From: Acidimicrobiales bacterium
Lineage (GTDB): Bacteria > Actinomycetota > Acidimicrobiia > Acidimicrobiales > Poriferisodalaceae
Reading direction: 5' to 3'
Length of the DNA: 64,000 nt
Assembly (NCBI GenBank): GCA_009843525.1
Contig: VYDH01000016.1
Location: 124,001-188,000 of the forward strand
The position numbers and the translations under genes were made by a program. The notes beneath the pieces were generated by a model. That model searched no databases, was not told the DNA's origin, and worked only from the letters and a program-made list of their open reading frames with translations. Of the stretch, positions 1-14,718 are shown one piece after another; the first letter of the stretch is position 1; every line of letters starts with the position of its first letter.

Positions 1-1
1 C

Positions 2-763
2 CGCGACTTGTGGGAGCCATTCATCGAGGCCGTGCTGGCGCGGGGCGATGTGACGTTCGAATGGGTGAAGGGTCATGCCGGCCAGCGGCTGAACTCTGCT
101 GCTGACGCGCTGGCCGTGCATGCTGCGGGGGCAGGTGCCGGCCAGAGCGGCAATCGGTTCGACGATGACGTGCTCGATCGGCTGAGCGACCCGCGATCGG
201 CACCGCAGCGCCCCGCCAAGGGTGCCGTCAGCACCGACGAGCCGACATCGGGGAACCGGGAGATCACCGGTCACGCCGTGGCCGTGCTGGGCCACCGGCC
301 GCCGGAGCTCGGCGGCTACAACGAGAACCCGGTGTCGCGCAAGGTGCTCCGGCAGTTGAGCGACGTCATTGCGGCCAAGCGCAAGATGCATCCCGATCTC
401 GTCGTGGCCACAGGCCTCGGGCTCGGTGCCGAGACCCTGGGTGCCGAGGCCGCGTTCGCGGCCGGTGTGCCTTATGTCGTAGTGCTGGCGTTCGAGGGCG
501 TCGAGCGGCGGTGGCCGGGGCCGTCACGCCAGCGGTTCGCAGAGCTGCGCCAGCGCGCAGGGCAGGAATTCGTGCTCGCGAACAGCGTGCCGGTGGACAC
601 CGAGGCGTTCGGCAAGGCCATGCGTCGTCGGGACACCTGGTTCATGCACAACTGCGACGAAGCCGTGCTGGTACGTCGCACTGACGATCGCACCTTGGGT
701 GATCTGTATCGGCGTCTTGAAGAAGCGCTGGACGATGTCTGGGTGATCGAGCCCGGCGACTAG
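2..763 (+). CDS. RNase HI-like domain fused to a YpsA/DUF1273-like SLOG domain (5' end outside window)
   Basis: The reading frame is open from base 2, so the start lies upstream. The first ~40 visible residues are the end of an RNase HI fold: RDLWEPF, then WVKGHAG and N-S-A-A-D-A-L-A, which holds the last catalytic Asp region. After a ~40-residue linker comes a Rossmann-like domain (VLGHRPPELGGYN, then ATGLGLGAETLGAEAA, FEGVERRWPGPS, and a final segment with MHNCDEAVLV) that resembles YpsA/DUF1273 of the SLOG superfamily, whose members bind nucleotides or nucleotide-like ligands. RNase H cleaves RNA in RNA:DNA hybrids; the role of the SLOG part is unknown. The stop codon shares the 4-base CTAG with the stop of the convergent neighbour. 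Domain identity is from motif recognition only. Confidence 0.75.
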   Translation, partial: RDLWEPFIEAVLARGDVTFEWVKGHAGQRLNSAADALAVHAAGAGAGQSGNRFDDDVLDRLSDPRSAPQRPAKGAVSTDEPTSGNREITGHAVAVLGHRPPELGGYNENPVSRKVLRQLSDVIAAKRKMHPDLVVATGLGLGAETLGAEAAFAAGVPYVVVLAFEGVERRWPGPSRQRFAELRQRAGQEFVLANSVPVDTEAFGKAMRRRDTWFMHNCDEAVLVRRTDDRTLGDLYRRLEEALDDVWVIEPGD

Positions 764-1218
764 TCGCCGTCGGCAGGAGCCTCGACGAGCGCAGCCAGCC
801 GTTCGAGCGTCTTCTCCATGTTCGGCACGTTCTTGCGGTGGGCCCCGATGAGCTCGACACTGCGCGGCAGCTTCGCAGTCGACCAGTCGAAGGTCTCGCG
901 CACCAGCGTGGCGCCGCCGGGCTGGGGCTCAAGCTGGTAGCTCCAGCGTTGGCCCTGCCAGTGCGCCCAGGTGATCAGGCGGTTCTCCTCGAACTCCAGC
1001 ACACGATTCTTCACGGTGTAGGAGACGCCCACCTTGATACGCATCGAGAACGTGCTGCCCAGCGTGAGCGGTGCATTGCTGGTGGTCAGGCGAGCCAGTG
1101 TTCCCGAGCCGTCGATTTCGCAATGACGGCGGGGATCGGTCAGCACGGCGAAGATCTTCTCCGCGGGGGCGGCGATGAGCCGCTCGACACTCACGCTCCG
1201 CTGGGTCGGCTTGGCCAT
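760..1218 (-). CDS. SRPBCC/START-like (polyketide cyclase/dehydrase superfamily) protein
   Basis: A 152-residue protein with the helix-grip pattern of SRPBCC proteins: an N-terminal strand SVERLIAAPAEKIFAVLTDP (the usual 'I.AP...VF..L.DP' opening), a run of beta strands through LITWAHWQGQRW, a VRETFDW strand near residue 110, and a C-terminal amphipathic helix (NMEKTLERLAALVE). Such domains form a hydrophobic cavity that binds a small lipophilic ligand; no substrate can be named. It starts at ATG 1218 with AAAGGAC upstream. It is convergent with the preceding gene and lies 24 bases downstream of the thioredoxin-lipoprotein gene on the same strand, so the two may be cotranscribed. Confidence 0.7.
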   Translation of the reverse strand: MAKPTQRSVSVERLIAAPAEKIFAVLTDPRRHCEIDGSGTLARLTTSNAPLTLGSTFSMRIKVGVSYTVKNRVLEFEENRLITWAHWQGQRWSYQLEPQPGGATLVRETFDWSTAKLPRSVELIGAHRKNVPNMEKTLERLAALVEAPADGD

Positions 1219-1242
1219 GCTGTCCTTTGGGCGGGATCGGCC

Positions 1243-1857
1243 TCAGGCGGGCGTGAGGGCGTCTTGCACGATGTCGGGCGGGGGAGTGCCGCCGCCGCGC
1301 TCGATGCTGCCGTCGGCTCGCACCAGCACCCACCTCGGCTGGTAGCTCACGCCGAGCTGACCCCACAGCTCGCCGTCTTCGTTGGCGACCTGCGGGACGT
1401 CGCCCAGCTGGTGCTTGGCCACGAAGCGCCGGTACGAATCCTGGGAGTCGCCGCCGGGCACACCCACCAGGACCAAGCTGTCGCCGTGCTCCGCCTTCAG
1501 CGCTGCGACCGCAGGCGCTTCACGATTGCACGCCGGTCACCAAGGCGCCCAGAACCACAGGAGGACGTCGTTCCCGGCTGTCGCAGCCAGATCGAATTGC
1601 TGCCCGTCGAGCAGCGCACCTTCCAGCAGCAGGATCTCGGCTCGGTTCTCCTGTGCGACAGCGGCGGTGGCAGCCGGCTCGGCAGCCGCAGCGGTGTCAG
1701 CGCCGCCGGCCGTGGTCGCGGGCGCCTCGGCAGCAGATGTCGTGGCCGCGGTGTCGCGGGACACGCTGACCTCGACGCTCCCGCAGCCGGCCAGAACGCC
1801 GAGGCCTGCCAGCCCGGCCAGCAGCACGATGACCGCTCGGTACCGCGGATGCGTCAC
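1243..1857 (-). CDS. Thioredoxin-fold lipoprotein with in-frame UGA at the redox-active Cys (candidate selenoprotein)
   Basis: Read through one TGA (1537-1539), this is a 204-residue protein. It starts at ATG 1857 with a signal peptide and lipobox (VLAGC, Cys at about residue 25), so it should be a lipoprotein outside the membrane. An Ala/Thr-rich linker (~residues 30-70) leads to a TlpA/ResA-like thioredoxin domain: VLLWFWAPW, then TGA, then PACNREAPAVAAL, LVLVGVPGGDSQDSYRRF, and YQPRWVLVRADG with the cis-Pro region. The stop codon falls exactly on the first Cys of W-C-x-x-C, giving W-U-P-A-C. The downstream part stays in frame with full family similarity for 97 residues. A hairpin suited to SECIS function follows (separate entry). 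The alternative is a TGC-to-TGA nonsense mutation or sequencing error; the match of position, frame and hairpin favours selenocysteine. Confidence 0.7.
1499..1519 (-). promoter_or_regulatory. Candidate bacterial SECIS hairpin downstream of UGA 1537-1539
   Basis: In the mRNA sense the 21 bases fold into a lower 5-bp stem AGCGC/GCGCT, a single bulged C on the 5' side, an upper 3-bp stem TGC/GCA, and a GGTC loop. The loop begins 26 bases after the UGA. Known features of bacterial SECIS elements are a small apical loop with G at its start at a spacing of roughly 16-37 bases, and in E. coli fdhF a loop G-U pair and a bulged U that SelB contacts. This hairpin has the loop G-U and a bulge 3 bp below the loop. 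The fold was worked out by hand and free energy was not calculated. Confidence 0.55.
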
Positions 1858-1913
1858 CTTGCCGAGCCTATCCCTGGGCCTGGAATGGGAGAGCGCGGGT
1901 TACATTCGGCTCG

Positions 1914-2003
1914 GTGAGCACCCGGGCGCTGATTGCTTTGGCTCTCGTCACCGGGATGGTCATCCTGATGGCGTTCGCGGTCCAGGTGCTCATCGCGCTG
2001 TAG
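1914..2003 (+). CDS. Possible 29-residue single-span membrane peptide
   Basis: GTG 1914 opens a 29-codon frame ending in TAG 2001-2003. The product is one hydrophobic helix (STRALIALALVTGMVIL and onward to VQVLIAL). A TACATT box at 1901-1906 lies 7 bases before the GTG, the spacing seen at several other leaderless starts in this window. It sits between the divergent lipoprotein gene and lpd. No homologue can be named; it could be a real small membrane protein or chance. Confidence 0.35.
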   Translation: MSTRALIALALVTGMVILMAFAVQVLIAL

Positions 2004-2083
2004 CGCTGTCTGGCCCGGCCGCAGCGCATGCTGCGCGGCCCCGGTGCGAACCGGTCGAGAACTCGGCGTACCCTCGTCGCGCG

Positions 2084-3547
2084 ATGGCAGATGACACGAA
2101 TACCGGCGAGACAGGCAGTCCGGTTCGGTACGACCTTGTGGTGATCGGCGGGGGCCCCGCGGGCTACGGGGCAGCCTTGTATGCCGGCGCCGCAGGCATG
2201 AGCGTCGCCCTCGTGGAGCGCGACCGGCTCGGCGGGACGTGCCTGCATCGAGGCTGCATTCCCGCCAAGGAACTGCTCGAGACCGCTGCCGTCTGGCGTA
2301 CCGTCGGCGAGGCCGCCGAATTCGGCGTGAACGTCGAGCCGCCGGAGCTGGACTTCGGCGTCTCGCAGGGCCGCAAACAGCGCATTGTCGACGGTCTCGA
2401 GAACGGGGTGAAGGGGCTGCTGCGCCGCCGCAAGGTCACCACCTACGAAGGCACGGGACGGCTGTGTGCCGATCGTTCCGTCGAGGTCGAAGCAGGCGAG
2501 TCCGGCACCCAGACGTTGCAGGGAGACCACGTCCTGCTCGCAGCAGGATCAGTGCCGATCACGCTGCCCGGCTTCGATCGTGACGGCACGCTGGTGATGA
2601 CCTCCGACGAGGTGCTCGCACTCGACGAGGTGCCGAGCCGAGTCGCTGTGATCGGCGGGGGGGCCATCGGCTGCGAGTTCGCTTCGATGCTCGCCGACCT
2701 TGGCGCCGAGGTCACCGTGCTCGAGTACGCGCCGCAGATCATCCCCGGTGTCGACGCCGACATTGCCAAGGCCCTCGCTCGGGCGTTCTCCAAGCGGGGA
2801 ATCACAGTGCTCACTGGCTGCCGGGTCACCGCGCACAAGCCGGGCGGTGGCGGCACGACCGTGCAGTACGAGATCGCTCCCCGGTCTGGCGATGGCGACA
2901 TGGTGGACGCGTCCCTCGAGGTCGACGCCGTGGTGGTGTCGGTGGGACGCCGGCCGTACCCGGATCATCTCGGCCTCGACGGCACCGGGGTCAAGCTCGA
3001 CGAGCGGGGCTTCGTCGTGGCCGACGAGATGTGCCGCACCACCATGGCCGGCGTCTATGCCATCGGCGATCTAATCAATACGCCGCAGCTCGCCCATGTC
3101 GGGTTCGCGGAGGCAATCGTGGCCACCAAGGACATGCTCGGCGAGCACCCGGCGCCTGTCGACTACGCAAACGTTCCTTGGGCGATCTACTGCCATCCCG
3201 AGGTGGCGTTTGCGGGGCTCACCGAGTCGGCGGCTCGCGAGGCCGGCTACGACGTAGTGGCGTCGAAGCACCGCTTCACCGGCAACTCGCGGGCGATGAT
3301 CGTCAACGACACCGAAGGACTCGTCAAGATCGTGGCCGAACGCGAAGCCGACGGCACCGCTGGGCGCGTGCTCGGCGTTCACATGATGGGACCGTGGGTC
3401 ACCGAGCAGCTCGGTCAGGGCTACCTGGCGGTGAACTGGGAGGCCACAGTCGCCGAGGTGGCGGCGCTCGTGCAGCCCCACCCGACGCTGTCAGAACTCT
3501 TCGGCGAGACGATGCTCTCGCTCACCGGGCGAGGTCTGCACGGATGA
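2084..3547 (+). CDS. lpd: Dihydrolipoamide dehydrogenase (E3)
   Basis: This FAD enzyme reoxidises dihydrolipoamide on E2 of 2-oxoacid dehydrogenase complexes, passing electrons to NAD+. The 487-residue protein has the FAD site VVIGGGPAGYGAA (~19-31), the redox disulfide GGTCLHRGCIPAK (Cys53 and Cys58), the NAD site VAVIGGGAIGCEFA (~185), the second FAD motif VYAIGDLI (~325) and the C-terminal HPTLSE with the catalytic His. ATG 2084 was chosen because the similarity begins just after it; a long upstream extension in the same frame is spurious. TACCCT at 2069-2074 lies 9 bases before it. It is followed after 39 bases by sucB and lipBA, so the operon builds and lipoylates one complex. Confidence 0.93.
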   Translation: MADDTNTGETGSPVRYDLVVIGGGPAGYGAALYAGAAGMSVALVERDRLGGTCLHRGCIPAKELLETAAVWRTVGEAAEFGVNVEPPELDFGVSQGRKQRIVDGLENGVKGLLRRRKVTTYEGTGRLCADRSVEVEAGESGTQTLQGDHVLLAAGSVPITLPGFDRDGTLVMTSDEVLALDEVPSRVAVIGGGAIGCEFASMLADLGAEVTVLEYAPQIIPGVDADIAKALARAFSKRGITVLTGCRVTAHKPGGGGTTVQYEIAPRSGDGDMVDASLEVDAVVVSVGRRPYPDHLGLDGTGVKLDERGFVVADEMCRTTMAGVYAIGDLINTPQLAHVGFAEAIVATKDMLGEHPAPVDYANVPWAIYCHPEVAFAGLTESAAREAGYDVVASKHRFTGNSRAMIVNDTEGLVKIVAEREADGTAGRVLGVHMMGPWVTEQLGQGYLAVNWEATVAEVAALVQPHPTLSELFGETMLSLTGRGLHG

Positions 3548-3586
3548 GCCCGGCAGCAGCCGCCGTGCGCCGTTCAGGGGCGCGAC

Positions 3587-4996
3587 ATGGCTGACTTGGT
3601 GCTGCCCCAGCTCGGCGAAACGGTCACCGAAGGCACCATTACCCGCTGGTTCAAAAACCCGGGCGATTCGATCGCGGTGGGCGAGGTGCTCTACGAGGTG
3701 TCGACCGACAAGGTCGACAGCGAAGTGCCCTCGCCGATGGAAGGCGTCATTACCGAGATTCGCGTCCCCGAGGGCGAGACGGTGGACGTCGGGACGGTGC
3801 TGGCGATCGTGGAGCTGGCCGAAGGCGCTGTCGCGCCGCCGCCCGATGCGGCAATCCCCGTGCCCAGCGGCACGCCGTCAGAACTGGCTGCGGCTCCCGC
3901 GACCGCGCCGGCAGCGGCCGATCCGCCAGCGGCTCCCGCCGTTGCACCGGTTGCTGCGCCTGCTGCTGCTGCTGCACCGGCCAACGGTGCGGCGAACGGG
4001 CCCACAACCGAGCATGGCAGTCATCTGCTCTCGCCCGTTGTCCGACGCTTGGTGCGGGAGCACGGTCTCGACCCCGCGGCCCTCGTGGGCACGGGCGTGG
4101 GCGGTCGCATCACACGCTCCGACGTGCTGAACGCCATCGACGAGCGGCAACGCACCGCAGCTGTGAGCGCGGGCCCCACGACGGCGACGGCGAGACCGGC
4201 CGCCGGCGAACGCTCTGCGGCGCCCACCCCGCCGCCGGTGCCGGCACCAGTCGCTGCCGCTGCCGCTGCTGAATGGACCGACGGCGACTCGCGCTACGAA
4301 TCGTTCAACAACATCCGGCGCCGCACGGGCGAGCACATGGTCAACTCCATGGCCACGTCGCCGCATGCCCTCACTGTCGTCGAGGTCGACTACGAGAACG
4401 TGGAGCAGGTGCGCCGGGCTCACCGAGAGGCGTGGCGGGCTGCGGAGGGATTCAGCCTCACCTACCTGCCGTTCATCGTGGTCGCCGTGGCAGATGCCCT
4501 GGCTCACTGGCCACGGCTCAACGCCTCGGTGGAAGACGGCGGCCTGCGCATCTGGCGCCGTCGCAACGTGGGCGTCGCGGTCGACCTCGACTACGACGGG
4601 CTGATCGTGCCGGTGCTGCGCGATGCCGACTCGTTCAGCTTGCGCGGCGTTGCCCGCACGATGAACGAGCTCGCGGCGCGCGCCCGGGAGCGGCGCCTGA
4701 CACCCGACGACATCAGCGGCGGCACGTTCACCATCTCCAACAACGGATCATTCGGCACCTACACCACTGCCGCCATCATCAACCAACCCCAGGTTGCTGT
4801 GCTCTCGACCGACGGCGTCGCCCGGCGCCCAGTCGTGGTCACAGATCGTTTCGGCAACGAGAGCATCGCCGTGCATTCGGTGGGCCACCTTGCGATGGGC
4901 TGGGATCACCGTGCGTTCGACGGCAGCTATGCCGCAGGCTTCCTAGGCCACATCCGCCAGATGCTCGAACAGCACGACTGGGGAGCGGAGTTCTAA
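3587..4996 (+). CDS. sucB: 2-oxoacid dehydrogenase E2 (dihydrolipoamide acyltransferase, succinyltransferase-like)
   Basis: The 469-residue E2 carries the swinging lipoyl arm and transfers the acyl group to CoA. Layout: a lipoyl domain (1-76) with STDKVDSEV, the lipoylated Lys near 42; a long Ala/Pro-rich linker; a peripheral subunit-binding domain (~146-183, LLSPVVRRLVREHGLD then GRITRSDVL); a second Ala/Pro linker; and the catalytic domain (~235-469) ending in the HRAFDG active-site motif. Only one lipoyl domain is present, whereas mycobacterial DlaT has two. ATG 3587 follows CAGGGGCGAC. E1 is not in the window, so succinyl versus another acyl specificity cannot be fixed. Confidence 0.85.
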   Translation: MADLVLPQLGETVTEGTITRWFKNPGDSIAVGEVLYEVSTDKVDSEVPSPMEGVITEIRVPEGETVDVGTVLAIVELAEGAVAPPPDAAIPVPSGTPSELAAAPATAPAAADPPAAPAVAPVAAPAAAAAPANGAANGPTTEHGSHLLSPVVRRLVREHGLDPAALVGTGVGGRITRSDVLNAIDERQRTAAVSAGPTTATARPAAGERSAAPTPPPVPAPVAAAAAAEWTDGDSRYESFNNIRRRTGEHMVNSMATSPHALTVVEVDYENVEQVRRAHREAWRAAEGFSLTYLPFIVVAVADALAHWPRLNASVEDGGLRIWRRRNVGVAVDLDYDGLIVPVLRDADSFSLRGVARTMNELAARARERRLTPDDISGGTFTISNNGSFGTYTTAAIINQPQVAVLSTDGVARRPVVVTDRFGNESIAVHSVGHLAMGWDHRAFDGSYAAGFLGHIRQMLEQHDWGAEF

Positions 4997-4998
4997 CT

Positions 4999-6681
4999 GT
5001 GCACTCCGTGCTGCAGGTGCGCTGGCTCGGAAGGGTCGGCTTCCGCGAAGCGCTCGACTTGCAGCGGCGCCTGTGGGCGCACAGCGCGGACAACTACCTG
5101 CTTCTGCTTGAACACCACCACGTCTTCACTGCGGGTCCGAGCGCAGACGAGGCCAACCTGCTCGTCGATCCCGGCGAGGTCGGCGCCGACTGCGTCCGCA
5201 TCGACCGCGGCGGCGACTTCACCTACCACGGTCCCGGCCAACTCGTCGGCTACCCGATCCTGACGCTGCCCGGTCGCCGCGGCGGCGGACTCGCCGAGAC
5301 AGCGGCGTACGTGTGCGACCTGGAACAGGTGCTCATCGACGCGCTGTCCGACTTGGGACTACCTGGCTGTGGCCGACTGCACGGGTATCCCGGCGTTTGG
5401 ACGGACCTCGACGGTACCCCTCGCAAGATCGCCGCCATCGGCGTGCGCCTCAGCCGCGGCCGCACGATGCACGGCTTCGCGCTCAACGTCGAGACGGATC
5501 TGTCGTGGTTCGACCGGATCATCCCGTGCGGCATCCGCGACTTCCGGCCGACGGCATTGCGAGCCGAGGGCTGCGCAGCGACCATGCGCGAGGTGGCCGA
5601 TGCTGTAGTCCGCCGCGCGGCCGAGCGATGGGGCGAAGCCGGCCGCGAGCGCGCAGAAGTGGCGTGGCGCCACCGGCCATCCGACCTCAGCGCCTTCAGC
5701 CGGGGTCTTGGACCGGGACAAGCGTCTGGCCCGGTTGACGTCTCGCCGCCGCGCAGCCTCGCCCGTCTTGCACAGGCGGGAGTCAACGGCGGGCTGGGGC
5801 TGGACGAGCGGAAGCCGTCATGGCTGCGTGCCCGGGTGGACGTGAACGAGGGCTATCTGCGGCTGCGTCGGGTGATGCGCCAGCACGACCTGGTGACGGT
5901 GTGCGAGGAGGCCGGCTGCCCGAACATCTTCGAGTGCTGGGGGGCGGGCACGGCCACGTTCATGCTCAACGGCGAACGCTGCACGCGTGCATGCGGCTTC
6001 TGTCTCGTGGATACTCGCCAACCAGCACCTCTCGACCCCGGCGAGCCCCGCCGCGTGGCCGACGCGGTCGCCGAGATGGAGCTGGATCATGCGGTGGTGA
6101 CCGCCGTGGCCCGGGACGATCTTCCCGATGGCGGGGCCACCGCGTTCGCCGAGACCATCGCTGCCATCCGGGCCCAGTCGCCGGGCACGACGGTCGAGGT
6201 GCTCGTTCCCGACTTCGGCGGCGACGCTGCCTCGCTGCAGACCGTCCTCGACGCGAGCCCCGACATTCTGAATCACAACATCGAGACCGTCGCCCGGCTG
6301 CAGCGGGCGGTGCGGCCCTCGGCCGGTTACGCACGCAGCCTCGCCCTGCTGGCGCGCAGCGCCTCGGCGGGGCACGTCACCAAGTCGGGCATCATCGTCG
6401 GCATGGGCGAGGATGACGCGGAGGTCGACCTCGCGCTGGCCGACCTGGCGGCCGTAGGCGTGAGCATCGTCACGATCGGCCAGTACCTGCGACCGACAAG
6501 CCATCACATTCCGGTAGCCCGCTGGGTGCCGCCCGAGTCCTTTGAACGTTGGCGGGAGGTGGGCGCGGGGCTCGACATCGACCATGTCGAGTCGAGTCCG
6601 CTCACCCGTTCGAGCTACCACGCCGCCGAGTCCGCAGCGGCCGTGCAGCTCACCCCCCGCGCCCACCCCACCCCGGCCTAG
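4999..6681 (+). CDS. lipB-lipA: Fused octanoyltransferase-lipoyl synthase (LipB-LipA)
   Basis: One uninterrupted 560-residue frame joins both steps of lipoate assembly. Residues ~1-225 are LipB, which moves octanoate from ACP to the E2/H-protein Lys: RGGDFTYHGPGQLVGYPI (~75), PRKIAAIGVR with the active Lys (~143) and IIPCGI with the nucleophile Cys (~176). After a ~35-residue linker, residues ~260-555 are LipA, the radical-SAM sulfur inserter: the auxiliary-cluster motif CEEAGCPNIFEC (CX4CX5C, ~302-313), the radical SAM motif CTRACGFC (CX3CX2C, ~328-335) and the C-terminal RSSY (~537). GTG 4999 begins 2 bases after sucB stops. I see no stop or convincing restart in the linker. The two enzymes are normally separate adjacent genes. 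Confidence 0.9.
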   Translation: MHSVLQVRWLGRVGFREALDLQRRLWAHSADNYLLLLEHHHVFTAGPSADEANLLVDPGEVGADCVRIDRGGDFTYHGPGQLVGYPILTLPGRRGGGLAETAAYVCDLEQVLIDALSDLGLPGCGRLHGYPGVWTDLDGTPRKIAAIGVRLSRGRTMHGFALNVETDLSWFDRIIPCGIRDFRPTALRAEGCAATMREVADAVVRRAAERWGEAGRERAEVAWRHRPSDLSAFSRGLGPGQASGPVDVSPPRSLARLAQAGVNGGLGLDERKPSWLRARVDVNEGYLRLRRVMRQHDLVTVCEEAGCPNIFECWGAGTATFMLNGERCTRACGFCLVDTRQPAPLDPGEPRRVADAVAEMELDHAVVTAVARDDLPDGGATAFAETIAAIRAQSPGTTVEVLVPDFGGDAASLQTVLDASPDILNHNIETVARLQRAVRPSAGYARSLALLARSASAGHVTKSGIIVGMGEDDAEVDLALADLAAVGVSIVTIGQYLRPTSHHIPVARWVPPESFERWREVGAGLDIDHVESSPLTRSSYHAAESAAAVQLTPRAHPTPA

Positions 6682-6711
6682 CGCGCCCCGGTCAGCGAGA
6701 GACAGCGCACG

Positions 6712-7563
6712 ATGGCTGAGGGCGCACCGGTGGATGTGGCGACGGTGATGTGCCAGTGGGCCGCAGGGGGGCTGGCCTACCTGTGGGTGACCACGCGCCG
6801 GCAGGAAGTCGGGCTCGGTTACGGCTGGCTGCTGCGCTCGCTCTACGCAGTAATCGCCGCCATCGGGGCTGTCACCGGCCTCGTGTTCCAGCCGAACGCC
6901 GTGCGTGACATGGCCTGCATTGCGATGGCGCTGTGCGCCGGTGCGACACTCGTGCGTTCGGCCGTGCCCAACGTGCCCACAGAGGATCGCAAGGCGCCGA
7001 CCGGCGATGCTGGCAGCGACGGTGCGGCACCAGCCGCATCCTCACCGGGGAGGACGATCGAGGGCTTCGACCCGCGCTGGGACCTCGCAGCGCCTCTCGT
7101 CGGACTGCTCGGGGTCATCGCTGCAGGACTCGGCGCGAGCGGCGACACCGCACCGGCGCTCCACCTCGCGCGTGTCGTTGTCGGCGCTGCGTTTCTGGGC
7201 GTAGTGAGCAACGCGATGCTGCTCGGCCACTGGTACCTCGTGCAACCCGGTCTGCGCCGCGAACCGCTGCGAGAACTCGTGCGCCATCTCGGCGGCATTT
7301 GGCCCATCGAGGTGGGATTGCTGCTGCTGCCCACCGGCATGATTGCGGTGCTGACCGGCACCATCGACGACGGCTACGGCGGGCTGCTGGGCTGGTTCTG
7401 GGTTGCCTGCGCGGTCACCACCGTGGCGCTGGCCGCGGTGGCCATGGCGGCGCTGCGCGAACGCCAGTACGCGGCCGTCATGGCGGCCACCGGGCTGCTC
7501 TACCTGGCGATCCTCACGGGCTTCGGCACCGACCTCGTGGCGCGCCTCACCCTCGCCGGCTAG
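6712..7563 (+). CDS. Polytopic membrane protein of unknown function (about 8 TM)
   Basis: A 283-residue protein with about eight hydrophobic segments, near residues 8-25, 40-60, 65-82, 120-140, 152-175, 195-215, 223-245 and 250-272. A polar loop rich in Ala/Pro/Asp (~85-115) separates TM3 and TM4. A GHWYLVQPGLRREPLRELVRH stretch after TM5 is the most distinctive segment. No nucleotide-binding or catalytic motif is visible and I do not recognise the family. It starts 30 bases after lipB-lipA in the same direction, so it may be the last gene of the lpd operon, and is convergent with the crotonase. Confidence 0.6.
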   Translation: MAEGAPVDVATVMCQWAAGGLAYLWVTTRRQEVGLGYGWLLRSLYAVIAAIGAVTGLVFQPNAVRDMACIAMALCAGATLVRSAVPNVPTEDRKAPTGDAGSDGAAPAASSPGRTIEGFDPRWDLAAPLVGLLGVIAAGLGASGDTAPALHLARVVVGAAFLGVVSNAMLLGHWYLVQPGLRREPLRELVRHLGGIWPIEVGLLLLPTGMIAVLTGTIDDGYGGLLGWFWVACAVTTVALAAVAMAALRERQYAAVMAATGLLYLAILTGFGTDLVARLTLAG

Positions 7564-7584
7564 CGCCGTTCAGCGGCTGAGCGG

Positions 7585-8409
7585 TCAAGTGCCCGTCCAC
7601 TCGGGCGGGCGCTTCTCGGCGAAGGCACGGCCGCCCTCCTTGGCGTCCTCGCTGTCGCCAACGATCCTGCGTATCGACTCGCCCATGCGCAGGGCCTCGG
7701 TCCAGCCCATGCGCTGGCTGCGCCACGCCACTTCCTTCACGGCTCGCACGGCAAGGGGCGCTCCCTGGCACAGCCGCTCGGCCAGGGAGCGGGCTTCGTC
7801 CATGAGCGTGTCGTGCGGAACGACCTTCCATGCGAGCCCCATCTCGTGAGCTTGCTCGGCGTCGAAGTTTTCGCCGGTCAGCAGGATCTCCATGGCGTTT
7901 GCCCAGCCGATCTTGTGCGGCATCCGCATCGAGCCCACGATGGTCGGCACGCCGATCCTCACCTCGGGCATGCCGAAGATGGCGCGGTCAGACGCGATGA
8001 GAAAGTCCGCCACCAGGGCCCCGGTGAGCCCGTAGCCGATGCACGCGCCGTTGATGGCCGCAATGATCGGCTTGTACAGCTCGAGGCCGCTCTCGAGGCT
8101 GTTGATGGTGGGGATCTCGAAGTACGACCCCGACCAGGTGCCTGCTGAGCCCTTGGTCGGATCGCGCAGGTCGGCGCCGGCGCAGAAGGCCCGGCCCTCC
8201 CCGGTCATGATCGCCACCCACGCGTCTGGGTTGTTGTAGAACTCCATCCACGCGGCGTTCAGGCACTGCCGCATGTCGCCGTTGATGGCGTTCATGGCCT
8301 CGGGCCGGTTGTAGGTGATGGTGGCGATGTGCCCGTCGAGCTGGTACGTGGCAGCGGCGCTGGGGTCGGAGATGTCGGGCACAGGGCCCTTGTAGGAAGG
8401 ATCCGTCAT
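7585..8409 (-). CDS. Enoyl-CoA hydratase/isomerase (crotonase) family protein
   Basis: The 274-residue protein has the crotonase pattern: ITYNRPEAMNAIN near residue 33, the oxyanion-hole motif TGEGRAFCAGADL (~69-81), then AINGACIGYGLTGALVADF and DRAIFGMPEVRIGVPTIVGS with the Glu position used for acid-base chemistry. Family members hydrate, isomerise or cleave acyl-CoA thioesters; the exact substrate cannot be read off. Its ATG at 8409 is 117 bases from the divergent HpaB-family gene, suggesting a shared catabolic role, which is inference only. Confidence 0.8.
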   Translation of the reverse strand: MTDPSYKGPVPDISDPSAAATYQLDGHIATITYNRPEAMNAINGDMRQCLNAAWMEFYNNPDAWVAIMTGEGRAFCAGADLRDPTKGSAGTWSGSYFEIPTINSLESGLELYKPIIAAINGACIGYGLTGALVADFLIASDRAIFGMPEVRIGVPTIVGSMRMPHKIGWANAMEILLTGENFDAEQAHEMGLAWKVVPHDTLMDEARSLAERLCQGAPLAVRAVKEVAWRSQRMGWTEALRMGESIRRIVGDSEDAKEGGRAFAEKRPPEWTGT

Positions 8410-8526
8410 GGGTGCCGTTCTAGCGCACCCACCCGTGCGGCCACCTGCGACTCCGGCTAGCTCAGCAGCGCACTACTAGCGTGACTGCCGCTCGCGACGG
8501 CACTCGCGACAGATGGGGAGCTCACG

Positions 8527-9912
8527 ATGCGCACCGGCCAGCAGTACAAGGAATCGCTCGCAGACGGACGCCTGACGTACTTCGAGGGCAAGCAGGTCGA
8601 CGACCTGGAGACTCACCCGATCCTCGGCCAAACGGTCGACGCGACCGCTGCGGGGTACGACCGCTTCTACGACCCGGCACCCGATGCCACCTCGCCGCTG
8701 ATGACCGTGCCGCGCAGCGCGGACGACCTGCGCGAGATGATCCCCATGCTGCATTCGGCGGGGATGATGGCCCATGTCACCTACACGTCCATCCAGACGC
8801 TAAAGACGGCCGCAGGTCGCATGGTCGACACCAAGCCCGACTACATCGAGCGGATGGATGCCTTCATCGGCGAGGCGCAGCGCGACGACGTGCGGATCAC
8901 CCAGTGCATCACCGATGCCAAGGGCGACCGCAGCCGGCCGCCGGCCCGCCAGGACGACCTCGACTCCTATGTGCGCGTCGTGGACCGCCAGCGGGACGGC
9001 GTGGTGATCCGCGGTGCCAAGCTGCACATCACCGGCGCCTCGTTCGGCCACGAGCTGCTCACTATCCCCACCAAGGCCATGAAGCCCGGCGAGGAGGACT
9101 GGTCGATCGGCTGCTCGGTGCCGGTGAGCGCCCCCGGTGTCAAGATCATCAACACCACCTACGCACCTCGGCATGAGGACCCCCGGGCGTTCCCGGTGTC
9201 GGGCGAGCATCACTATCCCGAGGGCTTCGTGATCTTCGACGACGTGTTCGTGCCTCACGAGCGCGTCTTCCTCGATGGCGAGACGCACTACGCCGCCGTG
9301 TTCGCCCATGCGTTGGGACTGTGGGAGCGCCTCGGCGGGCTGTCGGCCTTCGTGGAGGAAGCCGACCAGCTCGTCGGGCTGGCCCAGCTCGTGGCCGAGG
9401 CCAACGGCACAGCGGGGATCGGCCACGTCAAGGAGAAGATCTCCGAGTTGATCATCCACGCCACGCTGATCCGCGCTGCGCTGGAAGCGGCCATCGCTCA
9501 CTGTTCCATCGGGCCCGAGGGTGCGGCGTTTCCTAACGAGCTCTACACCAACGCCGGCAAGTTCCAAGCGGCGGCGAACTACAGCGCCATGGTTCGCCAC
9601 CTCCACGACATCGCCGGCGGTGCCGTGCTCACCTCGCCGGTGCCGGCCGACTTCGAGAATCCTGATGTCGGCGCGCTGGCACGCAAGTACATGTCCACCC
9701 GCCACGATGTCGACGGCGAGTACCGGGCACGCCTGATGCACACCATCCGGGACCTCACCGCCGACTCCTACGGCGGCTGGAAGTTCGTGACCAACCTGCA
9801 GGCCGGAGGCGGGCTCTATGCGCAGCGCATTGTGACGCGTAAGCACTACGACCTCGACGCCGCCAAGCAGAAGGCGCTGGCCGTGGCTGGGCTCGCCGAC
9901 GCCGAGCACTAG
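8527..9912 (+). CDS. HpaB / 4-hydroxybutyryl-CoA dehydratase-superfamily flavoprotein
   Basis: The 461-residue protein matches the HpaB family, which includes 4-hydroxyphenylacetate 3-monooxygenase and 4-hydroxybutyryl-CoA dehydratase. Landmarks are MRTGQQYKESLADGR at the N-terminus, TDAKGDRSRPPARQDDLDSYVRVV (~132-155), RGAKLHITGAS (~163) and the acyl-CoA-dehydrogenase-like helical C-terminal half. The Cys pair (CxxxC) near residue 100 and the HxxxxxxC that bind the [4Fe-4S] cluster of the dehydratase are not seen: the first region reads AHVTYTSIQTL and the second FAHALGLWERLGG. A classical cluster-bearing dehydratase is therefore unlikely. GGGGAG at 8515-8520 is an ideal ribosome site for ATG 8527. 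Confidence 0.75.
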   Translation: MRTGQQYKESLADGRLTYFEGKQVDDLETHPILGQTVDATAAGYDRFYDPAPDATSPLMTVPRSADDLREMIPMLHSAGMMAHVTYTSIQTLKTAAGRMVDTKPDYIERMDAFIGEAQRDDVRITQCITDAKGDRSRPPARQDDLDSYVRVVDRQRDGVVIRGAKLHITGASFGHELLTIPTKAMKPGEEDWSIGCSVPVSAPGVKIINTTYAPRHEDPRAFPVSGEHHYPEGFVIFDDVFVPHERVFLDGETHYAAVFAHALGLWERLGGLSAFVEEADQLVGLAQLVAEANGTAGIGHVKEKISELIIHATLIRAALEAAIAHCSIGPEGAAFPNELYTNAGKFQAAANYSAMVRHLHDIAGGAVLTSPVPADFENPDVGALARKYMSTRHDVDGEYRARLMHTIRDLTADSYGGWKFVTNLQAGGGLYAQRIVTRKHYDLDAAKQKALAVAGLADAEH

Positions 9913-9955
9913 TGCCGAGCGGCCCCCCTGACGGGGGTCGCGAGAGCGGCTCGCC

Positions 9956-9961
9956 TAGCTT
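9956..9961 (+). promoter_or_regulatory. -10 box for leaderless ABC transporter operon
   Basis: TAGCTT lies exactly 6 bases before GTG 9968, so transcription should begin at or next to the start codon. No Shine-Dalgarno is present. A matching -35 is not obvious; the bases there form a GC-rich stretch with a 5-bp C/G hairpin (9924-9937) after the preceding gene. Confidence 0.5.
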
Positions 9962-9967
9962 GACGAT

Positions 9968-10915
9968 GTGAGCGAATCCTCATCCGAGCCGGCAGTGATC
10001 GCCTCGACGACATCACTGACACAGCAGTTCGGATCGACGGTGGCGCTGGACGCGCTCGACATTCGGATGCGGCCCGGCGTGACCGGGCTCGTCGGGGCGA
10101 ATGGTGCCGGCAAGACCACGCTGCTCAACGCTTTGCTCGGCCTGCGTCCGCCGACCTCGGGTTCGGCCACGGTGCTGGGGCTCGATCCCCGCAGCCAGGG
10201 CGCCGCACTGCGCGCACAAGTCGGATTCGCTCCCGAGCGGGACGTGCTGCCTGACGAAATGCGGGCCGTCGATTTCGTGCGCCATCTGGCACAGGTACGC
10301 GGCCTGCCTCGCAGCGAAGCCCGCACCCGGGCATCGGACAGCCTGTGGCTGGTCGGGCTCGGCGAGGAGCGCACCCGCACGCTCGGCACCATGTCCACCG
10401 GTCAGCGCCAGCGCGTCAAGCTGGCGCAGGCCGTCGCGTCCGACCCGCAGCTGGTGCTGCTCGACGAACCCACCTCCGGGCTCGATCCGACGCAGCGCAC
10501 CGAGATGCTCACGCTCATCGGCGAGATCAGCAACGAGCACTCGGTCAACGTGGTCTTGTCGTCGCACCTGCTCGAGGAGGTCGAGCGGGTCTGCGACCAC
10601 ATCGTCGCCCTCGACGCGGGCCGTCTCGTGGCCGATGGGCCGATCGACGAGCTGGTCGGCGACGGCGAGGGCATCACCTTGGAACTGGTCGACATCGCCG
10701 AGCCGGCGGGCTCGGTGGATGAGGTCCAGCGCTTGCTCACACGGGCCGGCGTGGAGGTGGAGCGCACCGGCACCACGCTGCGACTGGGCGGTCAGGGTCG
10801 GGATGAGCTCAGCGACCGGGCGCGCGACGCGGTTGCCGAAGCAGGTGCGCGCATCCGGCGCCTCGAAGCCCGCCAGCGCACGCTTGCCGATCTGTTCGAG
10901 GGATCGGCAATATGA
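9968..10915 (+). CDS. ABC transporter ATP-binding protein (ABC-2 exporter type), pair 1
   Basis: The 315-residue ATPase has Walker A GANGAGKTTLLNA (~44), the Q-loop region VGFAPERDVLP, signature STGQRQRVKLAQA (~143), Walker B QLVLLDEPTSGLDP (~164), and an H-loop in SSHLLEEVERVCDHI. The C-terminal ~90 residues form the extra domain common in drug or polymer export ATPases. It powers the membrane subunit encoded next, whose start overlaps its stop by 4 bases. Substrate is unknown. Start GTG 9968 follows a TAGCTT box at leaderless spacing. Confidence 0.88.
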   Translation: MSESSSEPAVIASTTSLTQQFGSTVALDALDIRMRPGVTGLVGANGAGKTTLLNALLGLRPPTSGSATVLGLDPRSQGAALRAQVGFAPERDVLPDEMRAVDFVRHLAQVRGLPRSEARTRASDSLWLVGLGEERTRTLGTMSTGQRQRVKLAQAVASDPQLVLLDEPTSGLDPTQRTEMLTLIGEISNEHSVNVVLSSHLLEEVERVCDHIVALDAGRLVADGPIDELVGDGEGITLELVDIAEPAGSVDEVQRLLTRAGVEVERTGTTLRLGGQGRDELSDRARDAVAEAGARIRRLEARQRTLADLFEGSAI

Positions 10916-11850
10916 ACGACGTCGCCATGCCGGCGCCCGGCACCGACAACGACGCGGCCCAGATCCTCGACCAGCGCTACCGGCCCTACAGCGGCGCCCG
11001 CCACGGGCTCGCCGGCGCGATGCGCGCCGTAGTCGGCTCGTCGGTGAGGTTCACGCTTGGCTTCGGGCGCCCCGCGCGGCACAAGTTCCTGCCGTGGCTG
11101 GCCGTGGTGGTCGCTTTGGTTCCCGCAATCGTCTTCGTGGGCATCGCCACGGTGCTCGACATCGATCTGATCTCCGAGAACATCCTGCCCGAGTACCACG
11201 AGTACTACGGCTTCATCGAGGCGGCGCTGTTCTTCTTCTGCGGGATCGTGGTGCCCGAGATCCTGGTGGCCGACCGACGCAACGGCATGCTGTCGCTGTA
11301 GCTGTCCACACCGCTGCGTCTGTGGAGCTACCTGGTCTCGAAGGCAGCAGCAGTGACGGTGACGCTCGCAGTCATCACGGTGGGGCCGCTGCTGTTCCTG
11401 CTCGTCGCCTACACCGTGGAGGGATCCGGCCCCGACGGACTCGGCGACTGGCTGGCGGTGCTCGTGCGAATACTGGGCTCGGGCATCGCCATTGCGGCCA
11501 CCATCACCGCCGCCAGCCTGGCGATCTCGAGCTTGACCGATCGGCGGGCATTCGCCGTGATCGGTGTCGTCCTGCTGCTTCTCGGCTCACAGCTCGTCAC
11601 CGGCGTGCTCGTCGAGGTGGCCGAGATGGACGCTCGCATCTACGCGTTCAACCTGGGCGAGATGGGCGATGCGCTCAAGGATCGGATCTTCGGCGTCGGA
11701 CAGCCGACGCTGGGTGAAGACGAATGGTCGCCAGAGCAACGCATCAGCGAGCTGTCGACGCTGTTCGTCATCGCGGTGAATGCCGCATGGGTGGCGGCAG
11801 GTGCATCTGTGCTGTGGTGGCGCTATCGCCGCATTGAGGGGGGTCGATGA
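10912..11850 (+). pseudogene. ABC-2 permease, pair 1, interrupted by in-frame TAG
   Basis: One 312-codon frame is broken by TAG at 11299-11301. The upstream part (129 residues) has an N-terminal cytoplasmic segment and two TM spans ending in ADRRNGMLSL. After the TAG it continues without frame change as LSTPLRLWSYLVSKAAAVTV and four more hydrophobic segments to the end. 'LSL-Y-LSTPL..YL.SK' is the expected ABC-2 permease pattern, so a Tyr codon (TAC or TAT) has become TAG. Everything else is intact and the next gene overlaps by ATGA, so the mutation is recent or a sequencing error. Amber recoding has no support here. Confidence 0.75.
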
Positions 11851-12872
11851 ACTCCCGACCTCGCCCCGCTCCTGCACCGGCCCCCATGCCGGACGCCGCC
11901 GGCGACGAACAGGCGTCCGCGCAGGGACCGGGCGCCGCTGCGGTCCCTGTGCCGCCCGCAGGCATGGTCGAGGTGCACGGTGTATCGAAGTTCTTCGGCG
12001 ATGTGGTGGCCGTGTCCGATGTGACCTTCGCCGTCCGTGCCGGCGTCACGGCACTGCTGGGGCCCAACGGCGCAGGCAAATCAACGCTGTTCCGCATGAT
12101 GTGCGGGCTCACGCCGCCATCGAGGGGAACGGTGCGCGTGCTGGGAGCTGATGCCCGGCGTAATCGCGATGTGCGCGGCCGGATCGGGCTGTCGCCGCAG
12201 CAGGACGCCCTCTTCGACCGGCTCGACGCGCTCGAGTTCGTGACGATCGCAGCCGCCACGCAGGGTGTGGCGGATCCTGAAGCGGCCGGGCGACACGCTC
12301 TGGGCATTGTGGAACTCGATCCCGACGATCATCGACCGGTGTCGGGCTATTCCAAGGGCATGCGGCAGCGCACCAAGCTGGCCGCGGCTCTTGTCCACGA
12401 TCCGGAGGTGCTGATCCTGGACGAGCCGCTCAACGGTCTCGATCCGGTGCAACGACGCCGCATGATCGAGTTGCTCGAAGACCTCGGCGCGCAGGGGCGC
12501 TGCGTGCTCGTCTCGTCCCACGTGCTGGAGGAGGTCGCCCGGCTCGGATCGAGAATCCTGGTGATTGCCCAGGGCCGCCTCGTCGCCAGCGGCGATTACC
12601 GCGAGCTCCGCGAGCTGATGGACGATCGCCCGCACCGCATCAGCATCGAGGCCGACCGGCCCCGCGATCTCGCCGCTGCGCTGGTCTCTTCGGGCACCGT
12701 GGTCGGAGTGCGCATCGAGGGCGATGTGGTGGTGGCCGACACGCTGCAGGCCGATCGCCTGGGACGTGAGGTTGCGCCGCTGGCGAAGGATCTGGGCGCC
12801 CGACTGCGGCAGGTGATCCCGCTGGACGAAGATCTCGAATCGGTCTTCCGCTACTTGGTGGAACGACGATGA
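11847..12872 (+). CDS. ABC transporter ATP-binding protein, pair 2
   Basis: The 341-residue ATPase has a Pro/Ala-rich N-terminal extension of ~35 residues, then VEVHGVSKFFGDVVAV, Walker A GPNGAGKSTLFRM (~72), the Q-loop IGLSPQQDALFD, signature SGYSKGMRQRTKLAAAL (~158), Walker B EVLILDEPLNGLDP (~182) and a SSHVLEEV switch. It overlaps the previous permease gene by 4 bases and the next by 4, so all four ABC genes form one transcript. ATG 11847 is the annotated start; initiation closer to MVEVHGVSKF is possible because the extension is not conserved in such ATPases. Confidence 0.87.
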   Translation: MNSRPRPAPAPAPMPDAAGDEQASAQGPGAAAVPVPPAGMVEVHGVSKFFGDVVAVSDVTFAVRAGVTALLGPNGAGKSTLFRMMCGLTPPSRGTVRVLGADARRNRDVRGRIGLSPQQDALFDRLDALEFVTIAAATQGVADPEAAGRHALGIVELDPDDHRPVSGYSKGMRQRTKLAAALVHDPEVLILDEPLNGLDPVQRRRMIELLEDLGAQGRCVLVSSHVLEEVARLGSRILVIAQGRLVASGDYRELRELMDDRPHRISIEADRPRDLAAALVSSGTVVGVRIEGDVVVADTLQADRLGREVAPLAKDLGARLRQVIPLDEDLESVFRYLVERR

Positions 12873-13669
12873 GCACAGGACCCGATACGCCAGCGACGAC
12901 GGAACAGCGGCGCCGCGTCGGCGCTGTTCGCGCGACGGCGCTGTGCTACCGGGTGCTCATCCGCCAGATCGTCTCGGCTGGCCGCCTTGCGGCGCTGGGC
13001 GCGCTCGGGGCAGTCATGGTCATCGTCGGCTGGGTCGTGGGCAACTCGACGAACGGCGGCGCCCCCGCCAATGCAGGGGCGCTGTTCGACGGCGCCAGCT
13101 ACGCCGACGGATTCGGCCTGATCGTCATCGTGCCGATCGTCTCGCTGGTGTTCGCCGCGGCCTCGCTCGGCGACGTCCGCGATGACGGCACGCTCGTGTA
13201 CCTGTGGCTGCGCCCCATGGGCCGCGCCCCGCTGGTGGTGGCGGCTGCCGCGGCGGCAGTGACAGTCTCGCTGCCGCTGTGCGTCATCCCGACCACGCTG
13301 GGCGGCTGGTTCGCGACTGACTTCGTTGCCGAATCAGGAGGCGTCGCACTGGGAGCGCTGGCCGCAGCGGCGCTGGGCACGGTCGCGTATTCGTGCCTGT
13401 TCGTGCTGCTGGGCCTGCTGTTCCGCAAAGCCGTGCTGTGGGGGATCGCCTACGTGCTGCTGTGGGAGGGGCTGGCGGTCGGCTTGGGCGATTTTGCCGA
13501 GCGGCTGTCATTGCGCGGCTATGCCCGCTCGCTGCTCTCGCAGATCGCTGACGTCGATCTCGGCTTCACCACCTACGGTCTCGTGACGTCGATCATCGTG
13601 CTCGCAAGCGTGTCGGTTGTCAGCCTCGCCCTCGCCGCCGTGCGACTCAGCCGCCTCAACGTCGACTGA
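12869..13669 (+). CDS. ABC-2 type permease, pair 2
   Basis: The 266-residue membrane subunit has six hydrophobic spans: near 42-62, 82-102, 117-139, 155-185, 190-210 and 232-255. The FGLIVIVPIVSLVFAAASLGDVRDDGTLVYLWLRPMGR segment between spans 2 and 3 is characteristic of ABC-2 permeases in which the protein recognises the 'end of TM2' element. It starts by ATGA overlap with its ATPase. It is intact, unlike the pair-1 permease, and could in principle serve both ATPases; that is inference. Confidence 0.8.
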   Translation: MSTGPDTPATTEQRRRVGAVRATALCYRVLIRQIVSAGRLAALGALGAVMVIVGWVVGNSTNGGAPANAGALFDGASYADGFGLIVIVPIVSLVFAAASLGDVRDDGTLVYLWLRPMGRAPLVVAAAAAAVTVSLPLCVIPTTLGGWFATDFVAESGGVALGALAAAALGTVAYSCLFVLLGLLFRKAVLWGIAYVLLWEGLAVGLGDFAERLSLRGYARSLLSQIADVDLGFTTYGLVTSIIVLASVSVVSLALAAVRLSRLNVD

Positions 13670-13731
13670 CCGCGCCAAGGTGGGCAACCGGGGGTCATAC
13701 CTCCGCAGCGGGAGCGCGACACAATGGACGA

Positions 13732-14718
13732 GTGCGCCTGGTGATTCAGATCCCCTGTCTCAATGAGGCAGAGACCCTGGGTCAGACCATGAGCGAGCTG
13801 CCGCGCCAGGTGGACGGCTTCAGCGAAGTGCTGTGGCTGGTCATCGACGATGGCTCCACCGACGACACGGTGAAGGTGGCTCGGAACCACGGTGCCGACG
13901 CCGTTGTCAGCCTCACGCAGAACAAGGGGCTCGCCGTGGCCTTCGCCAGTGGCATCGATGCGGCGCTGCGCATGGGCGCCGACGTGATCGTGAACACCGA
14001 CGGCGACAACCAGTACGAAGCGGACGACATCAGCAAGCTGACCGAGCCGATCGTGGCCGGCCGCGCCGACCTGGTGATCGGCTCGCGAGACATCCGCAAC
14101 CACCCAGAGTTCTCGCCGCTCAAGAAGCGGCTGCAGCGGCTCGGCTCGTGGACGGTCCGCCAAGCATCGGCGACCGACGTGGCCGATGTGACTTCTGGGT
14201 TCCGCGCCTACAGCCGGGAGGCTGCGCTGGCGGCGAACGTCGTGTCGCGGTTCACGTACACGCTCGAGACCGTGATCCAGGCCGGCAAGTCGGACCTTGC
14301 GGTCACCGATGTGCCGGTGCGGGTGAATCCCACCACCCGGCCGTCCCGCTTGTTCAAGTCCAAGCGCCAGTACGTGCGCAGGGCGGCCGGCACCATCGCC
14401 CGCGTCTACGCGATGCACGAACCGCTGCGGGTCTTCGCTGTGCCGGCGGCACTGTTCGCCGCGATCGGCATGTTCCTGTTCGCCCGCTTCGGGTGGTTCC
14501 TGGTGACCTCGGACGGCTCAGGACATGTGCAATCGCTCATCATCGGCGCCGTCGCGCTGCTCGTGGCCATGCAGCTCGTGATGCTGGGCGTTCTGGCCGA
14601 CCTGCTGCGCGCGAACCGTGTGATCGCAGAGCGAACGTTGCGCCGAGTCCGCGCGATAGAGCTCGACGTCGGAACACTGAAGCAGCCAGATTCTGAAACC
14701 GGGGAGCCGCGCAGATAG
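13732..14718 (+). CDS. Family 2 glycosyltransferase, DPM1/polyprenyl-phosphate type, with C-terminal TM pair
   Basis: The 328-residue enzyme opens with VIQIPCLNEAETL, then VIDDGSTDDTV (nucleotide binding), VVSLTQNKGLAVAF, and NTDGDNQYEADDI carrying the DxD-like metal site (~90). SGFRAYSREAA (~158) is the acceptor-side motif of DPM/GtrB-type enzymes. Two TM helices (~235-257 and ~265-290) anchor it. Such enzymes load a sugar from an NDP donor onto a lipid phosphate for later transfer outside the membrane. GTG 13732 follows CACAAT (13720-13725) by 6 bases, fitting a leaderless start. Confidence 0.83.
   Translation: MRLVIQIPCLNEAETLGQTMSELPRQVDGFSEVLWLVIDDGSTDDTVKVARNHGADAVVSLTQNKGLAVAFASGIDAALRMGADVIVNTDGDNQYEADDISKLTEPIVAGRADLVIGSRDIRNHPEFSPLKKRLQRLGSWTVRQASATDVADVTSGFRAYSREAALAANVVSRFTYTLETVIQAGKSDLAVTDVPVRVNPTTRPSRLFKSKRQYVRRAAGTIARVYAMHEPLRVFAVPAALFAAIGMFLFARFGWFLVTSDGSGHVQSLIIGAVALLVAMQLVMLGVLADLLRANRVIAERTLRRVRAIELDVGTLKQPDSETGEPRR

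Follow-up and report, generated by a model that had tools for sequence, protein, structure and literature searches.

We identified an intact selenoprotein gene, as far as sequence comparison can indicate, in the 64,000-nucleotide stretch of actinobacterial DNA analysed here (the window, G000:C18:124001-188000, from an assembly of 3.34 Mb in 43 contigs that is 93.8% complete). The gene encodes a thioredoxin-like protein and is interrupted by a stop codon, and it is very probably intact, with the UGA specifying selenocysteine (Sec) in the active site. We put the probability that UGA codon 107 is read as Sec by means of a SECIS hairpin at roughly 94%.

A gene for a putative thioredoxin-like lipoprotein, with one in-frame TGA

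The gene occupies 1243..1857 on the minus strand, with a GTG start at 1857-1855 and a TGA stop at 1245-1243, and encodes 204 residues with Sec predicted at position 107. Codon 107, the TGA at 1537..1539 (minus), is the sole interruption of the frame from 1857 to 1243 and is followed by 97 sense codons. Frame reading and homologue alignment place it at the first position of a C/UxxC motif, here W-U-P-A-C, exactly as the original prediction had read it (TGA 1539-1537, at the first Cys of CxxC, with 97 residues downstream). The putative resolving cysteine of UPAC, Cys110 (TGC, 1528..1530, minus), is invariant in a 28-row alignment (A2), and its column holds Sec in 3 of 103 domains aligned from the best-scoring homologue matches. 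At the N-terminus (1780..1857, minus) a hydrophobic signal peptide precedes a lipobox, L-A-G-C, matched as VLAGC at residues 21-25, with the predicted lipidated Cys25 at codon 1785-1783. A crude pattern found a lipobox in 72 of 93 Sec homologues. An Ala/Thr-rich linker separates the signal peptide from the thioredoxin domain.

The domain scored over the cut-off (in brackets) for three Pfam families: Redoxin 47.3 (26.6), AhpC-TSA 45.2 (26) and Thioredoxin_8 41.6 (27). Together with the lipobox at Cys25, these matches bear out the earlier description of a lipoprotein with a TlpA-like thioredoxin domain. The curated NCBIfam cut-offs were missed for TlpA (NF047696, 42.9 versus 230), ResA (NF002854, 42.1 versus 170), DsbE (TIGR00385, 34.5 versus 123.15) and WAxxUGC (NF041054, 30.6 versus 300), and PADLOC and PHROGs scans of the selenoprotein gave no match. 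The protein would be TlpA/DsbE-like in its working, yet it lies outside the named NCBIfam families TlpA, ResA, DsbE and WAxxUGC.

The nearest solved structures by sequence were Mycobacterium tuberculosis DsbF (3ios, 3.5e-22) and MPT53/DsbE (1lu4, 3.1e-19), and Foldseek ranked DsbF, MPT53 and ResA at the top for an AlphaFold model built from 28 aligned sequences. Ten-residue means of pLDDT in this model were 84-97 over residues 71-200 and below 50 for residues 1-59. Residue 107 sits immediately before a helix spanning residues 108-124, which in the model is the classical redox position of the thioredoxin fold. DsbF and MPT53 are close to this protein by sequence and by fold, but they carry Cys-xx-Cys where this protein has Sec-xx-Cys. 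The fold also matches Bacillus ResA and the pneumococcal lipoprotein thioredoxins Etrx1 and Etrx2, which likewise use Cys and have no Sec.

Conservation of the TGA codon and of the selenocysteine genes

We searched for homologues over 148 genomes, comprising the window's own genome and those of its genus, family and order. If the TGA were a sequencing or assembly error and the true codon at 1537-1539 encoded Cys, then it should be peculiar to this assembly. Such an error is conceivable in a single metagenome-assembled genome, and the other in-frame stop of the window is indeed private to it. That stop, the TAG at 11299-11301 (plus), interrupts an ABC-2-type transporter permease whose frame is open in 10 of 10 genus relatives, which indicates that the TAG, unlike the TGA, reflects either an error or a lesion that is recent and private to this assembly. 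The caution attached to it in the original prediction was correct in that the stop is real, but it does not carry over to the TGA, which is common to all genomes of the genus. A TGA-bearing orthologue was present in 11 of 11 genus genomes, the relatives being 86-98% identical, and a separate TGA-bearing paralogue (B, 52-56% identity) was likewise present in 11 of 11, in 12 copies. The TGA is shared by the ten remaining genomes of the genus, each from a different species, and it recurs in homologues across the order and from other classes. A sequencing error at this codon is thereby excluded, and we assign that explanation a negligible probability. The paralogue in the window's own genome (L069, G000:C18:206945-207340) is its second Sec thioredoxin; it has a lipobox, LLASC, recognized by eye, and a long acidic linker of EEV repeats that is partly read as N, and its TGA is found in 11 of 11 genus genomes.

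Beyond the genus, a TGA-bearing homologue was found in 37 of 39 family genomes. In the remaining two, G022 and G036, the contig breaks off soon past the neighbouring microprotein gene (after 66 and 25 bases, respectively), at the expected place of the gene. In one of the 37 (G018) the TGA-bearing homologue lies on a different contig from its microprotein and lpd genes. We fetched 101 loci of best-scoring matches and aligned 103 domains from them. Comparison of homologues at the TGA column, proposed earlier as a check, gave TGA in 93 and Cys in 10 of these domains at the first redox position, with motif types UxxC (90), UxxU (3) and CxxC (10); lower-scoring matches, many without any stop, were left unfetched, so these proportions describe the nearest homologues and not all TlpA-like proteins. 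In an even draw of 246 genomes from the phylum, 75 had a match at E<=1e-9. Among the matches listed for this draw, 19 genomes of other classes had a match with a single TGA, and the 8 genomes of other classes that we inspected all carried UxxC. With this order-wide and wider distribution, a Sec-containing TlpA-like protein is no rarity in Actinomycetota.

The three UxxU homologues (L109, L112 and L115, from genomes G114, G143 and G142) form one branch with SH-aLRT support of 98, and each retains a single GGUC hairpin, 26 nt from the first UGA and 17 nt from the second. Reconstructed by parsimony, the history of Sec and Cys required 8 changes, only 2 of which were forced by well-supported branches, the alignment columns being too few to separate gain from loss. 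The order to which the window belongs also includes a locus (L191, G297:C154:60592-61707) where a Sec copy of the gene (USVC) lies next to a Cys copy (CSVC) on one contig.

A genuine stop followed by decay of the downstream half would also leave a TGA in the middle of the domain, and one distant homologue (G054:C69) does contain a TAA besides the TGA in its matched stretch. In a pseudogene, however, the codons past the stop should be released from selection. Mean dN/dS for the 11 orthologues was 0.065 upstream of the UGA; downstream it was 0.185, and past the SECIS 0.165. The 12 paralogues gave 0.115, 0.253 and 0.259 for the corresponding stretches. The codons past the TGA are under purifying selection. 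In addition, the genus copies contain no further stop inside the matched stretch, and the stop falls at one codon across many genera. Relatives with a decayed downstream frame, which had been named as an observation that would count against a selenoprotein, were not what we found, and a pseudogene is accordingly as improbable an explanation as a sequencing error.

The genome also carries the machinery for Sec insertion. A tRNA-Sec with anticodon TCA was found on contig C37 (66.3 bits; also found by ARAGORN), C32 carries selA (381 bits) next to selB (277 bits), and selD lies on C5 (352 bits). All four genes that the original prediction had asked to be sought are therefore present, and its counter-case of a genome lacking them does not apply. 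The selD gene has its own in-frame TGA (SHGAG-U-ACK), which is an internal positive control. Across the 148 genomes, selA matches occurred in 101 at E<=0.001, 98 of them over the cut-off. A selA match accompanied a fetched TGA copy in 66 of 66 genomes (65 over the cut-off and one, G107, partial). Among the 8 genomes whose fetched loci held only Cys copies, 6 had no selA match; the association gave a Fisher p of 1.5e-7 with kinship ignored. The other two, G057 and G084, have selA and yet only Cys copies among the fetched loci.

The frame would stay open equally well if UGA were reassigned, or if plain readthrough inserted Trp or Cys. Against this, UGA serves as an ordinary stop in this genome, where it closes the selenoprotein gene itself as well as lpd and several others in the window. 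The in-frame UGA moreover falls exactly at the redox Cys column, and its occurrence is paralleled by that of the Sec genes and of the SECIS. We consider such a reading very unlikely, if slightly less so than error or decay, and we favour decoding as Sec.

A conserved hairpin downstream of the UGA

The putative bacterial SECIS lies at 1499..1519 (minus) and reads, from 1519 to 1499, AGCGC-[C bulge]-UGC-GGUC-GCA-GCGCU, with its GGUC loop (1507-1510) 26 nt after the UGA. Folding reproduced the hairpin as it had been described, but with modest energy (61 nt, z -1.81, 11 of 200 shuffles equally good). A single sequence is therefore no proof of the hairpin, and the proof comes from conservation. Among the orthologues (A), synonymous change was seen in 0 of 7 codons at positions +7 to +13 after the UGA versus 75 of 114 elsewhere (one-sided Fisher p 0.0008), and the paralogues (B) gave 0 of 7 versus 76 of 112 (p 0.0006, one-sided Fisher). 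For the covariation test we took the 39 distinct sequences that have GGUC in register, among them a few that form no stem; duplicates were removed beforehand, as were the 11 TGA copies (of 93) that lack GGUC at that place. Standard pairs made up 83.9% of the stem versus 68.6 in shuffled alignments, double changes numbered 37 versus 10.7, and the covariation score was 0.417 versus 0.166, none of the three being reached in 500 shuffles; slid controls scored at most 0.147 in covariation. Further pair types in the stem were matched by 2 of 500 shuffles, and a count of the pairs with any double change gave nothing unusual (5 versus 3.8 shuffled, 94 of 500 as high). These results support the assignment of the hairpin as a conserved RNA element and probable SECIS.

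Of the TGA copies, 73 of 93 had the GGUC loop with its three apical pairs, the family contributing 49 of 49, and none of the 10 Cys copies had it; the GGUC letters alone occurred in 2 of 10 Cys copies. In one Cys homologue (L095, from genome G082, which has no selA match) the loop letters are kept and the stem is broken, and these letters are possibly the relic of a lost SECIS. The remaining 20 of 93 TGA homologues lack this combination of loop and apical pairs, and some have a different hairpin further downstream, which shows that the form of the SECIS varies in distant relatives. Seven distant TGA homologues (L131-L134, L136, L140 and L142) have a hairpin with an AGUUC-type loop about 8 nt further downstream, and these seem to use a different SECIS hairpin.

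In the SECIS of Escherichia coli fdhF, the loop is also GGUC, a single bulged U lies 3 bp below it, and the loop lies 18 nt after the UGA. The hairpin described here shares the loop and the position of the single bulged base, but its bulged base is C and its loop comes 26 nt past the UGA. A single-base bulge characterizes the genus; in its place many relatives show a continuous stem or a 1x1 mismatch. Of the SECIS originally proposed, then, the GGUC loop at 26 nt stands, backed by covariation and by frozen synonymous sites, and the bulge holds for the genus.

An Rfam scan of window positions 1-14000 gave no match over the gathering score. Run over the genome, a covariance model of the SECIS gave 38 matches at E up to 10, and one of them outscored the hairpin of the selenoprotein. 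Among the 30 of these matches that we examined, only the two known genes had a TGA in register and an open frame, and none besides them was credible as a further selenoprotein. A first look at a genome-wide hunt for selenoproteins scored 150 of 6431 candidates and is no census.

Predicted redox role, gene neighbourhood and known relatives

Taken together, the sequence features suggest that the product is probably an exported, lipid-anchored thiol-disulfide oxidoreductase in which Sec is the attacking residue. UGA codon 107 would be decoded by SelB and tRNA-Sec under the direction of the SECIS hairpin 18-38 nt downstream, and the product would be exported and anchored by a lipid at Cys25, so that its thioredoxin fold, of the TlpA/DsbE/DsbF type, would lie outside the membrane. 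The attack would be made by Sec107, located where helix alpha-1 starts, and Cys110 would resolve the selenenylsulfide. The most likely role would be that of a reductase or isomerase for disulfides or other oxidised thiols of exported proteins, recharged through a membrane protein of the DsbD/CcdA type. Etrx1, Etrx2 and ResA are TlpA-like thioredoxins that are tethered to the membrane outside the cytoplasm and recharged by CcdA. A DsbD_TM/CcdA-type protein (32.6 bits, cut-off 27.1) is encoded in the genome, and its gene, in a point of difference from those systems, lies on another contig than the selenoprotein gene; it adjoins a thioredoxin-like gene that we recognized by eye and that has the motif WCVPC. 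No genetic link between the selenoprotein and an electron donor was found.

The same selenoprotein could instead work as an oxidase that forms disulfides, like M. tuberculosis DsbF and MPT53, which are after all its nearest solved structures. Some oxidants have Pro after the first redox residue, as does the UPAC motif. Selenocysteine, however, usually favours reduction or peroxide chemistry. No VKOR match was found in the genome at E<=0.001, which is a weak absence because the assembly is about 94% complete; with the CcdA-type gene present, the balance leans towards reduction. We regard the oxidase role as the less probable direction, though one to be taken seriously, and retain the reductase or isomerase as the preferred role.

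The gene lies in a conserved order: a Polyketide_cyc2/SRPBCC-type protein gene downstream (760..1218, minus), the selenoprotein gene, a divergent microprotein ORF (1914..2003, plus) and then lpd (2084..3547, plus), which encodes a pyridine nucleotide-disulphide oxidoreductase of the dihydrolipoamide dehydrogenase-like kind. At loci L019-L048 an SRPBCC match stood beside the selenoprotein gene in 30 of 30 cases and an lpd match in 27 of 30. The microprotein, of 29 aa with a single TM segment, is itself conserved (VSTRALIALALVTGMVILMAFAVQVLIAL); at E<=0.1 it was matched in 93 of the 148 genomes from the order, and it had no Pfam match. It was found upstream of the selenoprotein gene in 33 of 37 loci checked, and in 9 further loci with the microprotein lpd was adjacent in 6. 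At four untruncated loci (L178, L181, L182 and L185) it stands beside lpd with no convincing thioredoxin match near, and we therefore rejected the idea that it is an exclusive partner of the selenoprotein. At two others (L179 and L180) it is near neither lpd nor a thioredoxin gene.

Selenoproteins of this kind are known. Thiol-disulfide isomerase-like/TlpA-like (cd02966/pfam13905, UxxC) and Redoxin UxxC selenoproteins are listed in the tables of PMC9312934 and PMC13188914, and UxxC thioredoxin-like families appear in the Sargasso Sea (PMC1088965) and GOS (PMC2398784, Trx-like 1) metagenomic surveys. As given in these sources, they share the thioredoxin-like fold, with Sec at the first and Cys at the second redox position. 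The words lipoprotein and actinobact- are absent from the main text of all four papers. UxxU is given for a Prx-like family in PMC9312934 and PMC13188914. Actinobacteria with selenoproteins or the Sec trait are covered in PMC1794560 and PMC5029168, the text of the latter having 0 occurrences of acidimicrob-. Among the literature titles listed none was about such a protein, which is no proof of absence in print. Within the literature covered, what seems new is a lineage-wide lipoprotein family with an fdhF-like SECIS and a small UxxU (double-Sec) branch.

Whether Acidimicrobiia and other Actinomycetota run an extracytoplasmic Sec redox system is, in our judgement, evenly balanced; such a system would consist of long-kept, duplicated Sec-thioredoxin lipoproteins, with a UxxU branch in which a single GGUC hairpin serves two UGAs 9 nt apart. 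Genes with an in-frame UGA of this sort are easily annotated as truncated, and a redox system common to one actinobacterial order can thus be overlooked. Natural Sec, Cys and double-Sec homologues occur within one order, as does the side-by-side pair at L191, and with them the question of why a cell keeps selenium becomes directly testable for an extracytoplasmic protein.
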